64,000 nt of DNA from Pseudanabaena mucicola str. Chao 1806 (lineage in GTDB: Bacteria > Cyanobacteriota > Cyanobacteriia > Pseudanabaenales > Pseudanabaenaceae): NCBI RefSeq assembly GCF_030323025.1, contig NZ_CP097329.1:2652001-2716000 (forward strand), written 5' to 3'. A model generated the notes under the pieces. That model had not been told where the DNA came from, did not search any database, and saw only the letters and a program-made list of their open reading frames with translations. Shown piece after piece: positions 4,636 through 58,505 of the stretch; position 1 is the first letter of the stretch, and every line of letters begins with the position of its first letter. The translations under genes were made by a program, and so were the position numbers.

Positions 4636-5085
4636 ATGACTACCATCGTTGATATCGCTGTTAATAATGAAGGCTTCTCTACTCTTGTTACCGCAGTATC
4701 GGCAGCAAGCTTAGTTGAAGCATTACAAAGTCCAGGTCCTTTTACGGTATTTGCTCCCAATGATGCAGCTTTCGCTAAATTACCTCCTGGCACTATTACG
4801 ACCCTAGTGCAAAATATCCCTCAATTAGCCCGTATTCTCACCTACCATGTAGTTGCAGGCAAATACAAAAAAGAAGACTTAATTGGTGTAAAATCTCTAA
4901 TTTCCCTTGAGGGTTCTCAAATTGATCTGGATATTTCTGAGGAAGGATTTGAAGCAAATAACGCAACGGTGATTGCTGCGGATATTGAGGCTGATAATGG
5001 CGTTATTCATGTAATTGATACAGTTATGCTGATGCGTCCCCATTGGTTTTATCCAATTATGGAGTCTGGTAAAGTCGGCGTATAG
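4636..5085 (+). CDS. cupS: CupS, fasciclin-domain subunit of NDH-1MS
   Basis: Small soluble subunit that binds CupA/NdhF3 in the inducible CO2-uptake complex. I chose the ATG at 4636, giving 149 residues. The frame is open for 30 more codons into cupA, but the protein from this methionine already begins at the FAS1 fold (MTTIVDIAV), and those 30 codons overlap cupA. A single FAS1 domain covers almost the whole protein. Box H1 is seen as [16 protein letters not shown] (about residues 34-49) and box H2 as [11 protein letters not shown] near the end. No signal peptide is present, unlike secreted fasciclins, which fits a cytoplasmic subunit. The stop codon lies in the motif TATAGCGGTTT, which resembles the end of the miniature repeat found elsewhere in the window. 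Confidence 0.92.
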
Positions 5086-6091: not shown

Positions 6092-6870
6092 ATGCTCCGA
6101 CTAACATGTACCAAAGAAGAAATAGATGCGCTACATTACGAAAGATTCCATCATCCGCATCCACGAGTACAGAGAAAGATGGAAGCACTATACCTAAAAA
6201 GCCAGAAATACCCGCATAAGGAAATCACGCAACTACTAAGAATCAATGAACCCACACTGTTGAGCTATTTACGAGATTATAAAGAAGGAGGGATAAGCAA
6301 ACTCAAAAAACTAACCTTTAATCGTCCCCAGAGCGAACTAAAAAAGCATCAAGAAAGTTTAGAGATATATTTTCGAGAACATCCACCCAAAACACTGGCT
6401 CATGCAGCAGCAAAAATTACCGAGTTGACAGGGATTGTCCGTAGTCCAGAACAGGGGCGCCACTTTCTGAAATCGATGGGAATGAGTTGTCGTCGAGTTT
6501 GATGCTGCTGCTCACTTCATCATTGGAGCCTATTTAGGCTTTTTGTGGTGTTTTGAACGCTTGTTTGTCAATTCTGGGAAGGGAAGGCAGCGTTTTAATG
6601 TCCTTGGTGCGCTTAATGCCGTTACTCATGAACTAGTTACCGTGACTAATGACACTTATATCAATGCTCAATCCGTATGTGACTTACTTTATAAACTTGC
6701 GGCTCTGGGATTGAATATCCCCATTACTCTGGTCTTGGACAATGCTCGTTACCAAAAGTGTGCTTTAGTTGTTGAGTTAGCTTAGTCTTTAAATATCGAG
6801 CTTCTCTATTTGACAACATTACTCTCCAAACTTAAACTTGATTGAGCGCCTTGGGAAAGTTAAGGTATAG
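6092..6870 (+). pseudogene. IS630-family transposase, frameshifted and truncated
   Basis: Two frames together make an IS630 (Tc1/mariner-like) transposase. The first piece, 6092-6502, has the helix-turn-helix region (EITQLLRINEPTLLSYLRDY). The second, from about 6499, has the catalytic-core text GKGRQRFNVLGALNAVTHEL and VLDNARYQKCALVVELA. An in-frame stop at about 6783 then interrupts the expected SLNIELLYL stretch, which continues after it to roughly 6870. The C-terminal catalytic region is missing. At least one frameshift, one stop and a 3' truncation make it dead. It abuts the broken methyltransferase gene, which it probably destroyed. Confidence 0.85.
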
Positions 6871-10720: not shown

Positions 10721-10790
10721 ATTTGCTATCCTCTTCGAGGATCGGTTCCATCTCTAGCTTCTAGACTTTACACACTTTGCTTGACAGTAG
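10721..10790 (+). mobile_element. Right-end fragment of an IS256 element
   Basis: This stretch matches the 3' end of the intact IS256 element (about 12947-13013). It holds the last transposase codons (FEDR), then TCTAGCTTCTAGACTTTACA and TTGACAGT. Only about 70 bp remain, joined directly to the inverted transposase remnant before it. From 10791 to 11120 I see no gene, only AT-rich spacer. Confidence 0.8.
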
Positions 10791-11120
10791 AGATCGCCGC
10801 GATTATGGTTAGATTTTTACCTTTGTTATGTGGTTTGCGACCATGCGCCCTTGTTCCTTTTTTTTGACCTTGTATAAGTCCTAGCCAGAGCTTAGGCAAG
10901 AACAAGACCCCTGCTATGGCGATTGGGCTGTATCATCGACCGATTTCGATGTTAGAGTTGCTGTCATTACGCGACTTTACTTCCCTCACTGGCTAACTGA
11001 CCAGTGCCGTTCAATATCTAATATAGAGAATTTAACAACTTGACATTTGTAATATTCTTTAAACAGATTAATGTAAATAGAAATTGATTGATTAAGTTGC
11101 ATTGCTCGTGTAAATATTAT

Positions 11121-11341: not shown

Positions 11342-11677
11342 TATGGTATTTGAAGCAGTCGAATGTCCAATTACAGAGATGGCAATCAATGGCAGTGGTA
11401 TCAGAGATACAGGCAGAGTACTAGGTATCAGTTCGACCACAGTGATCAACGAATAAAAAAACAGGAAGATATAGAAGTTGTCAACTATCGATTACTAGAG
11501 CAATTGGATGTAGAGACAATAGATGTCGATCTTTATCTATTTGAATCAGCAGAGATGGATGAAATGTGGAGTTTTGTTGGCAGTAAAAAACAGCAGAGAT
11601 AGTTATGGCATGCCACAGATCATATAAGTGGAGACGTTTTAGCCTATGCACTAGCACCACATCAAGATCAAGCTTTA
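11342..11677 (+). pseudogene. IS1-family transposase remnant
   Basis: Across two frames the sequence reads ITEMAINGSGIRDTGRVLGI, then RLLEQLDVETIDVDLYLFES, AEMDEMWSFVGSKKQQR, a stop in place of Trp, and LWHATDHISGDVLAYALAP. This is the central part of an IS1 transposase (MDEMWSFVGSK carries a catalytic Asp). One frameshift near 11450 and one nonsense change near 11600 kill it. It is cut at its 3' side by the miniature repeat and IS256 insertion that begin at 11676. Confidence 0.8.
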
Positions 11678-11690
11678 TAGCGGTTTTCAT
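11676..11690 (-). repeat. MITE-A, outer 15 bases split off by IS256
   Basis: TATAGCGGTTTTCAT is one terminus of the 105-bp two-hairpin element. The remainder lies at 13018-13115, beyond the IS256 insertion. GTTTTCAT occurs at both junctions (11683-11690 and 13018-13025) as an 8-bp target duplication. Confidence 0.85.
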
Positions 11691-13017
11691 GAGAGTGTAA
11701 ATTAAAGTGTGTAAAGTCTGGGATATATAGAGAGAGATGATCAAGACACACAATTACCAACAATAAAACCGATGAATATCCGCAAAGAATTGCTAGACGA
11801 ATTGCTGCAAGAATGTAAAACACCACCCGACCTATTCGGAGAAGGAGGAATCCTGAAACAACTAACCACCGCATTAGTGGAACGAGCATTAGAAGCAGAA
11901 TTATCAACGCATCTAGGGTACAAGAAGCACGAATCCAGACCAGAAGGACAAAGCAACAGTCGCAACGGCTATAGCCAGAAAAAAGTCCAAGGCGACTTTG
12001 GCGTAGCCGAAATTGCAGTACCACGCGATCGCAACGGAGAGTTTGAACCACAGATGGTAAAGAAAGGGCAAAGCCGCTTGTCAGGACTAGACGAGAAGAT
12101 CATTGCCCTATATGCCAGAGGGATGAGTGTCAGGGATATCCAGTCCCAGTTGCAAGAAATGTATGGTGTCGAGGTATCACCGACCCTGATTTCCAATGTC
12201 ACTGATGAAGTGATCGATGAGGTGAAACAATGGCAAAACCGTCCCCTTGATGCGGTTTATCCGATTGTATTTCTGGACTGTCTAGTCATCAAAGTGCGAG
12301 ACAATGGCAGGGTGATTAACAAGTCCCTGTACTTTGCCTTGGCGGTGAATATGGACGGATACAAGGAATTATTGGGTATGTGGATTTCACCGAATGAGGG
12401 TGCAAAATTCTGGTTATCGGTACTCACCGAAATTCGTAACCGTGGGGTCAAAGATATTTTGATTGCTTGCGTTGACGGTTTGACTGGTTTTCCCAATGCT
12501 ATCGAAACGGTATTTCCTAAAACGCAGGTGCAGTTGTGCATTGTCCACATGGTCAGAAACTCGGTTGCTTTTGTCCCTTGGCAACAACGCAAGCAGGTTT
12601 GTGCCGATCTCAAGGCGATTTATGCGGCGACGACGGAATCGGAGGCGGAGTTTAACCTTGAACTCTTTGCTGAAAAATGGGACAAACTATATCCCTCGAT
12701 CTCCAAATCTTGGCGCAGTCATTGGGCGAACATTATCCCCTTCTTTGCGTTTCCTCTTGAGATTCGCAAAGCAATTTATACGACTAATGCGATTGAGTCG
12801 ATGAATAGCAGTTTGCGGAAGGTGATTAAGTCTCAGCAGATTTTTCCGACCGATGAGGCTGCTTTCAAGCTGGTTTACTTGGCTATGCGGAATATTTCTA
12901 AGAAATGGACTATGCCCATTCGCGATTGGAAACCTGCTCTCAATCGCTTTGCGATCCTCTTCGAGGATCGGCTCCATCTCTAGCTTCTAGACTTTACACA
13001 TTTTACTTGACAGTCTC
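11691..13017 (+). mobile_element. Complete IS256-family insertion sequence
   Basis: The element is 1327 bp long with imperfect inverted ends. The left end GAGAGTGTAAATTAAAGTGT (11691-11710) pairs with the reverse complement of the right end near 12988-13017. It is flanked by an 8-bp direct duplication, GTTTTCAT, and encodes one full-length transposase. The clean duplication inside a recognisable target shows a recent insertion, and the copy may still be mobile. Confidence 0.92.
11772..12983 (+). CDS. IS256-family transposase (mutator type)
   Basis: Full-length DDE transposase of 403 residues, the usual family size. The N-terminal DNA-binding part has [20 protein letters not shown], and the helix-turn-helix region [17 protein letters not shown] follows. 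The catalytic acidic residues lie in [11 protein letters not shown] (Asp, about residue 169), [13 protein letters not shown] (Asp, about 235) and [14 protein letters not shown] (Glu, about 342). The mutator signature [11 protein letters not shown] precedes the Glu. There are no frameshifts or stops, so it is probably active. The start at 11772 is 81 bp inside the left end. Truncated relatives lie at 10721-10790 and 40931-41466. Confidence 0.95.
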
Positions 13018-13115
13018 GTTTTCATTTTGCCTACGGCAAAATGAAAACTCAAAACTCTTAACGGGACTGATTTTTTGTTTTCAAATGAGTACACACTCAT
13101 TTGAAAACCGCTATA
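13018..13115 (-). repeat. MITE-A, main part of the IS256-interrupted copy
   Basis: Reverse-complement relative of the intact copy at 40972-41076. It contains the hairpin CATTTTGCCTACGGCAAAATG, a spacer, the second hairpin AAATGAGTACACACTCATTT, and the terminus CCGCTATA. With the 15 bases before IS256 and one copy of the duplication removed, it is again 105 bp. The following 13116-13453 is AT-rich non-coding DNA in which I see no gene; it probably holds the promoter of the gtrA-like gene. Confidence 0.85.
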
Positions 13116-40887: not shown

Positions 40888-40930
40888 ATGATTATTTGGA
40901 CACCGCTACAACCATCATAACGTTTAATCT

Positions 40931-41466
40931 GAGGGTGCAAAATTCTGGTTGTCAGTACTTACCGAAATTCATATAGCGGTTTTCAAATGAGTGTGTACTC
41001 ATTTGAAAACAAAAAATCAGTCCCATTAAGAGTTTTGAGTTTTCATTTTGCCTACGGCAAAATGAAAACCGCTATATTTCCCAAAACTCAGGTGCAATTA
41101 TGCATTGTCCACATGGTCAGAAACTCAGTCGCTTTTGTCTCATGGCAACATCGCAAGCAAATTTGTGCTGACCTCAAGGCGATTTACAGTGCGGCAGCCG
41201 AATCGGATGCTGAGTTTAACCTTGAACTCTTGGCTGAGAAGTGGGACAAGCAATATCCCTCGATCTCCAAGTCTTGGCGCAGTCATTGGGCGAATATTAT
41301 CCCCTTCTTTGCTTTCCCTCCTGAGATTCGCAGGGCGATTTATACCACAAAGGCACTTGAGTCGATGAATAGCAGTTTGCGGAAGGTGATTAAATCTCAA
41401 CAGATTTTCCCCTCAGATGAGGCTGTTTTCAAGCTGGTTTATTTGGCGATGCGGAATATTTCCTAG
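40931..41466 (+). pseudogene. IS256 transposase remnant interrupted by MITE-A
   Basis: 40931-40971 matches the middle of the intact IS256 transposase (GAGGGTGCAAAATTCTGGTT). The MITE-A element follows (40972-41076) in place of about 60 bp, and homology resumes at 41077 with [20 protein letters not shown] and runs to YLAMRNIS. The Glu motif reads [14 protein letters not shown]. The 5' half and the last 25 codons are missing. At 41466 it is joined to an ISKra4-type remnant. Confidence 0.85.
40972..41076 (+). repeat. MITE-A, intact 105-bp two-hairpin miniature element
   Basis: Terminal inverted repeats TATAGCGGTTTTCA and TGAAAACCGCTATA enclose two adjacent hairpins. One has arms GTTTTCAAATGAGT (loop GTGT), and the other has arms GTTTTCATTTTGCC (loop TAC). 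An AT-rich spacer of about 27 bases lies between them. The ends begin and finish with TA, consistent with a TA-duplicating (IS630/Tc1-type) mobiliser. Another copy lies at 11676-11690 plus 13018-13115, and a decayed one at 58422-58505. Confidence 0.85.
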
Positions 41467-58421: not shown

Positions 58422-58505
58422 GCACACTTATTTGAAAACAGAGAAATAATCCTCAAAAGGAGGTTGAGTTTTCATTTTGCCTACGGCAAAATGAAAACCA
58501 CTATA
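58422..58505 (+). repeat. MITE-A, decayed copy
   Basis: It keeps the hairpin CATTTTGCCTACGGCAAAATG and the end GAAAACCACTATA but has diverged over the other half (GCACACTTATTTGAAAACA versus GTGTACTCATTTGAAAACA in the intact copy). It lies just before the DUF928 stop at 58509, between two reverse-strand genes. Confidence 0.7.

Follow-up and report, generated by a model that had tools for sequence, protein, structure and literature searches.

The window, the whole 64-kb stretch of Pseudanabaena mucicola DNA analysed here, contains three copies of a short element, MITE-A (Table 1). Copy 1 is the intact 105-bp unit described in the original prediction, with perfect 14-bp inverted ends and two hairpins, A and B, separated by a 28-nt spacer. 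It lies within the remnant of an IS256-family transposase, and 72 bp of that target (IS positions 749-820) are absent between the two remnant pieces that flank it. Because this part of the target has been replaced, the site is not a clean example of insertion; the conspecific genome G058 is occupied at the same site, with identical flanks (L004/L108). Copy 2, in the opposite orientation, had been reported as two separated pieces, and we found it to be complete and interrupted by an IS256-family insertion sequence (IS), which is flanked by the 8-bp duplication GTTTTCAT (11683-11690 and 13018-13025). The nesting is reciprocal, with an IS256-family IS inside MITE copy 2 and MITE copy 1 inside an IS256-family remnant. 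Copy 3, previously listed as a decayed copy from 58422, does exist as a truncated relic, with an alignment that begins at 58426 and lacks the left 25 bp of the element.

Table 1. MITE-A copies, their component parts and associated insertion sequences, in window coordinates (last row: positions in the genome G000)
Feature	Position	Strand	Remarks
MITE-A copy 1, intact, 105 bp including TA at either end	40972-41076	+	Occupied in G058 too
Left terminal inverted repeat TATAGCGGTTTTCA, 14 bp	40972-40985	+	IS630-family IS match runs to 20 bp (TATAGCGGTTTTCAAATGAG)
Right terminal inverted repeat TGAAAACCGCTATA, 14 bp	41063-41076	-	
Hairpin A, GTTTTCAAATGAGT-GTGT-ACTCATTTGAAAAC, 14-bp arms, 4-nt loop	40979-41010	+	ACAC in other copies
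Hairpin B, GTTTTCATTTTGCC-TAC-GGCAAAATGAAAAC, 14-bp arms, 3-nt loop	41039-41069	+	GTA in other copies
Left piece of IS256-family transposase remnant around copy 1	40930-40973	+	91% to IS positions 705-748
Right piece of IS256-family remnant around copy 1	41075-41462	+	87% to IS positions 821-1208
MITE-A copy 2, terminal segment of 15 bp	11676-11690	-	11683-11690 is the IS256 target duplication GTTTTCAT
IS256-family insertion sequence splitting copy 2	11691-13017	+	
MITE-A copy 2, other 98 bp, 95.9% to copy 1	13018-13115	-	Opens with the second GTTTTCAT
MITE-A copy 3, truncated relic, element positions 26-105	58426-58505	+	84% identity
Fragment of partner IS630-family IS, 96 bp	10789-10887	-	90% identical; 25 aa of transposase
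Example sites of other flipping hairpin families in G000 segments	2013098, 2797048, 354187, 1820348		

Across the window, the 14-mer end occurs at eight sites with at most two mismatches, against 0.78 on average over 50 mononucleotide shuffles. Strings resembling TATAGCGG at 5081, 10265, 30213 and 37964 showed no hairpin of this kind within the 40 bases inspected. Remnants of IS630-type transposases had also been noted, at 6.1 and 11.3 kb; such remnants are present, but their actual places are about 6.57-6.82 and 10.79-10.89 kb. The former (6570-6818) is a transposase fragment of a different IS630 lineage, with a stop and only a weak end-like string within 1.5 kb, and the latter belongs to the partner IS described below.

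The genome from which the window derives (G000) is a single contig of 4.53 Mb and carries at least 57 copies of MITE-A of 100 bp or more, from a set of 59 distinct copies examined. A search with the 105-bp unit, in which 40 of 147 first-look candidates were scored, returned at least 119 matches (internal cross-matches included), of which at least 41 are full-length. The ends of these copies are sharp: 56 of the 57 start with TAT and end with ATA, and the flanks are unconserved, with the commonest base reaching at most 26 of 57 at each of eight positions outside either end. Over the whole genome, the 14-mer end was found at 191 sites with at most one mismatch, versus 6 for a reversed-pattern control. 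When 58 genomes were searched, all 25 from the genus Pseudanabaena (its own genome included) gave matches, the best in G006 and G007 being merely 46-50 bp long, and none of the 33 genomes outside the genus did. MITE-A is thus multi-copy in its genome and its genus, in line with the original prediction, and is a genuine MITE: short, non-coding, bounded by terminal inverted repeats (TIRs), multi-copy and sharp-ended at unrelated sites.

Searches with the 20-bp end found it in 85 stretches of the named collection, and the 80 listed come from Pseudanabaena or uncultured cyanobacteria with two exceptions, one Phormidium tenue record and one contig of a Flavobacteriaceae MAG (L233). The latter was rejected as a MITE-A locus: at 1e-30 it matches none of the other loci compared, and is therefore probably a chance 20-mer. 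Spread by viruses was likewise considered and set aside, as viral_contigs held no exact match to the 20-bp end. Hairpin A also occurs alone, in 46-bp elements with complete ends that represent a very small offshoot of the family (G000 1724530, 2252318 and 3706885; G058 C4:32586 and C41:32397); by eye, one of these G000 sites has a G058 equivalent that agrees in both flanks, and another agrees with G058 in a single flank. The sole candidate for a solo hairpin B, L172, proved to be part of a longer copy. At this locus (L172 1501-1606) the stem of hairpin B is extended outward over CCGCTATA, as might arise if template switching had copied the stem. The copies at L119 (G058 C144, about 28.8 kb) and L007 (G000 2778882) have one flank in common and differ in the other, so one side has been rearranged between the two genomes; a second, overlapping alignment at L119 may be an artefact of the hairpins.

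We next consider occupied and empty sites. Twenty-three copies had no partner in the other genome. Two of them had imperfect ends and were set aside; of the other 21, 10 sites were tested by joining their flanks. MITE-A is absent from G058 at two of these (L005 versus L173, L137 versus L199), and a third site, occupied in G058 (L158), is empty in G000 (L174). At a fourth (L128), both genomes are occupied and the relatives L175, L200, L176 and L177 are empty, a fifth empty relative (L178) having given no row. Only these 4 of the 10 tested sites bear on duplication, since four others (L001, L017, L133 and L140) are occupied in both G000 and G058 and two (L104 and L012) have no counterpart among the matches listed. 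All four informative sites read the same way, with a single TA when empty and TA[TAGCGG...CCGCTA]TA when occupied, the duplication that the original prediction had proposed to look for. The L158 insertion was seen independently in a long alignment, where the two flanking blocks share 2 bp in G000 and are separated by 101 bp in G058. MITE-A therefore inserts at TA, duplicating it, and its presence differs between two conspecific genomes, which diverge by 0.45% over 294 kb aligned. The single-TA empty sites indicate that MITE-A was gained at three sites since G000 and G058 split; precise loss at those three sites is a less likely alternative.

An IS with the same 20-21-bp ends was found, and it belongs to the IS630 family. 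In the sister species G023, this IS (L074; 1,022 bp) carries TATAGCGGTTTTCAAATGAGC at either end and comprises two frames that overlap, the N-terminal one carrying HTH_Tnp_IS630 and the C-terminal one DDE_3; the DDE_3 frame exceeds the NCBIfam IS630 cut-off, and Sleeping Beauty is the only solved-structure match. The overlap suggests that the two frames may be joined by programmed frameshifting. G023 contains seven matches with a stop-free 238-aa open frame, and ends were read in two of them (L074 and L097). At the hairpin-B end, however, MITE-A retains only 14 bp of the IS end. G000 itself has 14 DDE_3 matches, three of which bear MITE ends as their own (L059 on both sides, L061 and L072 on one side), and a fourth (L071) has only a MITE copy nearby. 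No intact matching IS was seen in G000, where L059 is interrupted and L061 and L072 are truncated, so MITE-A looks orphaned in this genome, and another transposase may serve it there. In the damaged L059 (G000, about 997.5-998.6 kb), the right end passes into MITE sequence, namely the spacer and hairpin B, and at the matching G058 site (L077) the loop of that hairpin is flipped.

The partner IS, intact in the sister species and only damaged in G000, is the likely source of transposase for MITE-A, and the agreement of ends and TA target supports the earlier reading of IS630/Tc1-type mobilisation, with movement by this transposase probable from that agreement. The enzyme would recognise the 20-21-bp ends and cut and paste the element, which could have originated from an IS by an internal deletion that left only the left 20 bp and a composite right end like that of L059; less probably, the events ran in the opposite order. 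The hairpins would not be needed for explaining transposition. A close parallel is ISY100 (ISTcSa) of Synechocystis PCC 6803, which the available part of its description presents as another cyanobacterial IS630-family element, roughly 1 kb long, that has short TIRs and duplicates TA on insertion, and whose mini-elements are as mobile as the complete IS when they retain 30 bp from either end (PMC2170065). The Pseudanabaena IS differs in its ends (TATAGCGGTTTTCAAATGAG) and in a transposase split over two overlapping frames, and a two-hairpin MITE is not described in that part of PMC2170065. Like prokaryotic MITEs in general, as covered in the accessible portion of a review (PMC10969869) whose reference list includes work on the cyanobacterial Nezha, MITE-A is short, non-coding, TIR-bounded, multi-copy and probably mobilised in trans; it stands apart through its TA duplication, its ends of IS630 type and the full hairpin present at either end. 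The main text of that review uses none of the terms IS630, hairpin and Pseudanabaena.

The original prediction, correct in identifying an IS630-type MITE, had missed that the hairpin tips of this element invert. Loop orientation varies between copies, hairpin B carrying TAC or GTA and hairpin A GTGT or ACAC, and all four combinations are found (9/6/4/3) among 22 otherwise identical G000 copies. Comparison of 35 orthologous G000/G058 copies, defined by both flanks being at least 97% identical over at least 100 bp adjoining the element, revealed 10 B tips and one A tip inverted in place; the pair L138/L114, which may represent a flip plus a substitution, was scored as unflipped. In L024/L159 the inversion is exact and carries along a stem base made asymmetric by a mismatch, which marks it as genuine inversion rather than the product of point mutation.

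Flipping extends well beyond MITE-A. We compared perfect hairpins with arms of at least 7 bp and loops of 3-15 nt between nine G000 segments (400 kb) and G058, and of 558 such hairpins 52 were flipped, 314 identical and 150 unlocated in G058, the rest either differing otherwise (37) or having self-complementary loops (5). Flipping depended on arm length: 3 flipped versus 214 identical for arms of 7-9 bp (3/217), 2 versus 22 for arms of 10-11 bp, and 47 versus 78 for arms of at least 12 bp (47/125 scorable; Fisher p ~3e-20 against arms of 7-9 bp). The 47 comprise 37 exact and 10 inexact flips, a few of the inexact ones being weak (one at 1 versus 2 mismatches); in repeated families, a hairpin may sometimes have been assigned to the wrong copy. 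The full tally of 178 hairpins with arms of at least 12 bp further includes 15 with other differences, 37 unlocated and 1 with a symmetrical loop, so that 47 of 141 located hairpins were flipped. Within this class, 3-nt loops were flipped and identical in equal number (33 versus 33), the value expected under full randomisation, and longer loops gave 14 versus 45. The flipped spacers are 3-13 nt long and spread over many unrelated sequences, a pattern that would ill suit an invertible switch (inverton), in which a single site-specific recombinase acts on inverted repeats around a spacer. Further dispersed families of hairpins, with the cores GTGGTGCGGGC, GTTGCGGGCGC and GTTTTGTTCCGCCCGC, recur in G000 and flip too (example sites in Table 1).

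The same comparison in Escherichia coli (K-12 MG1655 versus REL606, 150 kb each) gave no flips, with 113 hairpins of arm length 7-9 and 12 of arm length 10 or more unchanged; as only two had arms of at least 12 bp, this control is underpowered and gives no ground for saying that E. coli is different. The idea that hairpins are tolerated through loss of the hairpin nuclease SbcCD is not supported, a search for SbcD having returned two matches over the cut-off in G000. A limited literature search found no publication on genome-wide hairpin flipping in a cyanobacterium. MITE-A is a new sequence of a known kind; the greater surprise is that hairpin flipping is close to saturation within a bacterial species.

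Several other accounts of these observations deserve consideration. Two adjacent hairpins near both ends and a high copy number would also fit a two-hairpin REP/BIME or IS200/IS605 (PATE) element, moved as a single strand by a hairpin-recognising Y1 (HUH) transposase. Such an element would insert without duplication, and MITE-A has symmetrical TIRs and duplicates TA, a combination not known from Y1 elements; moreover, the transposase with the same ends is of the DDE_3/IS630 type. On the strength of the TA duplication and this DDE transposase we reject a REP/IS200-type origin as scarcely credible. The loop flips, in turn, might be attributed to the transposase or to gene conversion from other MITE copies, for which donors are at hand, both loop states being present in many copies. 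Yet hairpins other than those of MITE-A flip as often (39 flipped versus 63 identical with arms of at least 12 bp, and 27 versus 27 with 3-nt loops), as do those with an arm not seen elsewhere in 464 kb (25 versus 38, compared with 22 versus 40 for the others). This uniqueness check covered roughly one tenth of the genome, and the 'unique' hairpins include at least one (4040288) that resembles a repeated family, which leaves conversion some room; we nonetheless regard transposase action or conversion as quite unlikely. Errors of sequencing or assembly could be suspected because G058 is most likely a metagenome-assembled genome. Lengths of up to 20 nt should be spanned by ordinary reads and by assembly k-mers, and hairpins whose arm and loop together fall within 20 nt flip equally often (15 versus 16 for arms of 12-17 bp with 3-nt loops); moreover, G000, a single contig, has both loop states in copies that are otherwise the same. 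We therefore hold an artefact to be very improbable.

Stem covariation raises a further question, whether the hairpins are under selection as an RNA element (a terminator, stabiliser or processing signal) in a domesticated MITE; the original prediction had raised a role as an RNA structure. In an alignment of 25 of 29 available genus loci (four partial ones omitted; 22 genomes, three of them represented twice), 12 of 35 stem pairs had changed on both sides, the corresponding figures being 2.2 for shuffles and 2-8 for slid controls. Ten of the 12 covarying pairs fall in the two hairpins, and the end helix is less reliable than these, since the first or last seven columns are flank-derived in four alignment rows. 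This covariation across the genus is strong and is what an RNA element would be expected to show. Against it, the window contains no Rfam match at gathering thresholds, the insertion polymorphism shows mobility, and loop flipping, seen here at many hairpins, can homogenise arms and so generate covariation without selection, as set out in the available parts of PMC8794818 and PMC8604942. Given the flips, stem covariation need not mean selection on RNA, and we consider a selected RNA element unlikely, if not negligibly so.

We favour instead, with high confidence, the reading that MITE-A is a non-autonomous IS630 (Tc1/mariner-type) mini-transposon of Pseudanabaena whose hairpin tips flip, probably through template switching. 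Tip inversion is part of a wider process, whose dependence on arm length is shown by the comparison above. The arm-length threshold, the preference for tight loops and the lack of a common sequence point to formation of a hairpin or cruciform followed by template switching, and from this pattern template switching during replication is the best explanation for the flips. It would invert loops, copy one arm onto the other and so keep stems perfect, and the stems of MITE-A are probably repaired in this way. In the portions available, the literature on template-switch mutation describes switching between inverted repeats that homogenises arms and inverts spacers (PMC8604942) and loop inversion with stem repair (PMC8794818), and thus predicts both inversion of loops and homogenisation of arms. 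The scale differs: the available part of PMC8794818 reports few loop inversions in the histories of RNA genes (69 with the loop-inversion-only pattern), whereas Pseudanabaena appears near equilibrium within one species.

On balance, we lean towards the view that hairpins with arms of at least 12 bp and 3-nt loops have been randomised between the conspecific genomes (33 flipped versus 33 identical), about two orders of magnitude above the per-base difference of 0.45%, and that the same process repairs stems, so that those of MITE-A stay perfect and covary without RNA selection. Kelchner and Wendel (1996) is reportedly the work cited for minute inversions at chloroplast hairpins. These inversions, according to the accessible part of PMC2903610, resemble those of the MITE-A hairpins: within a species, non-coding stretches flanked by inverted arms change orientation. 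The Pseudanabaena case differs in concerning a free-living cyanobacterium, a mobile element and many sampled hairpins, with about 50% inversion for 3-nt loops.

Collectively, MITE-A represents a well-supported cyanobacterial IS630-type MITE, with a partner IS, empty sites and within-species differences in presence and absence. If long hairpins do undergo near-saturated loop inversion within a species, mutation alone would be enough to keep stems perfect, which would caution against taking covariation as proof of RNA; alignments and SNP counts between strains would likewise contain false substitutions, with one flipped loop reading as several. Such inversion would also constitute a bacterial counterpart of the minute inversions of chloroplasts, bringing a plastid phenomenon into a free-living cyanobacterium in which it would be open to study.
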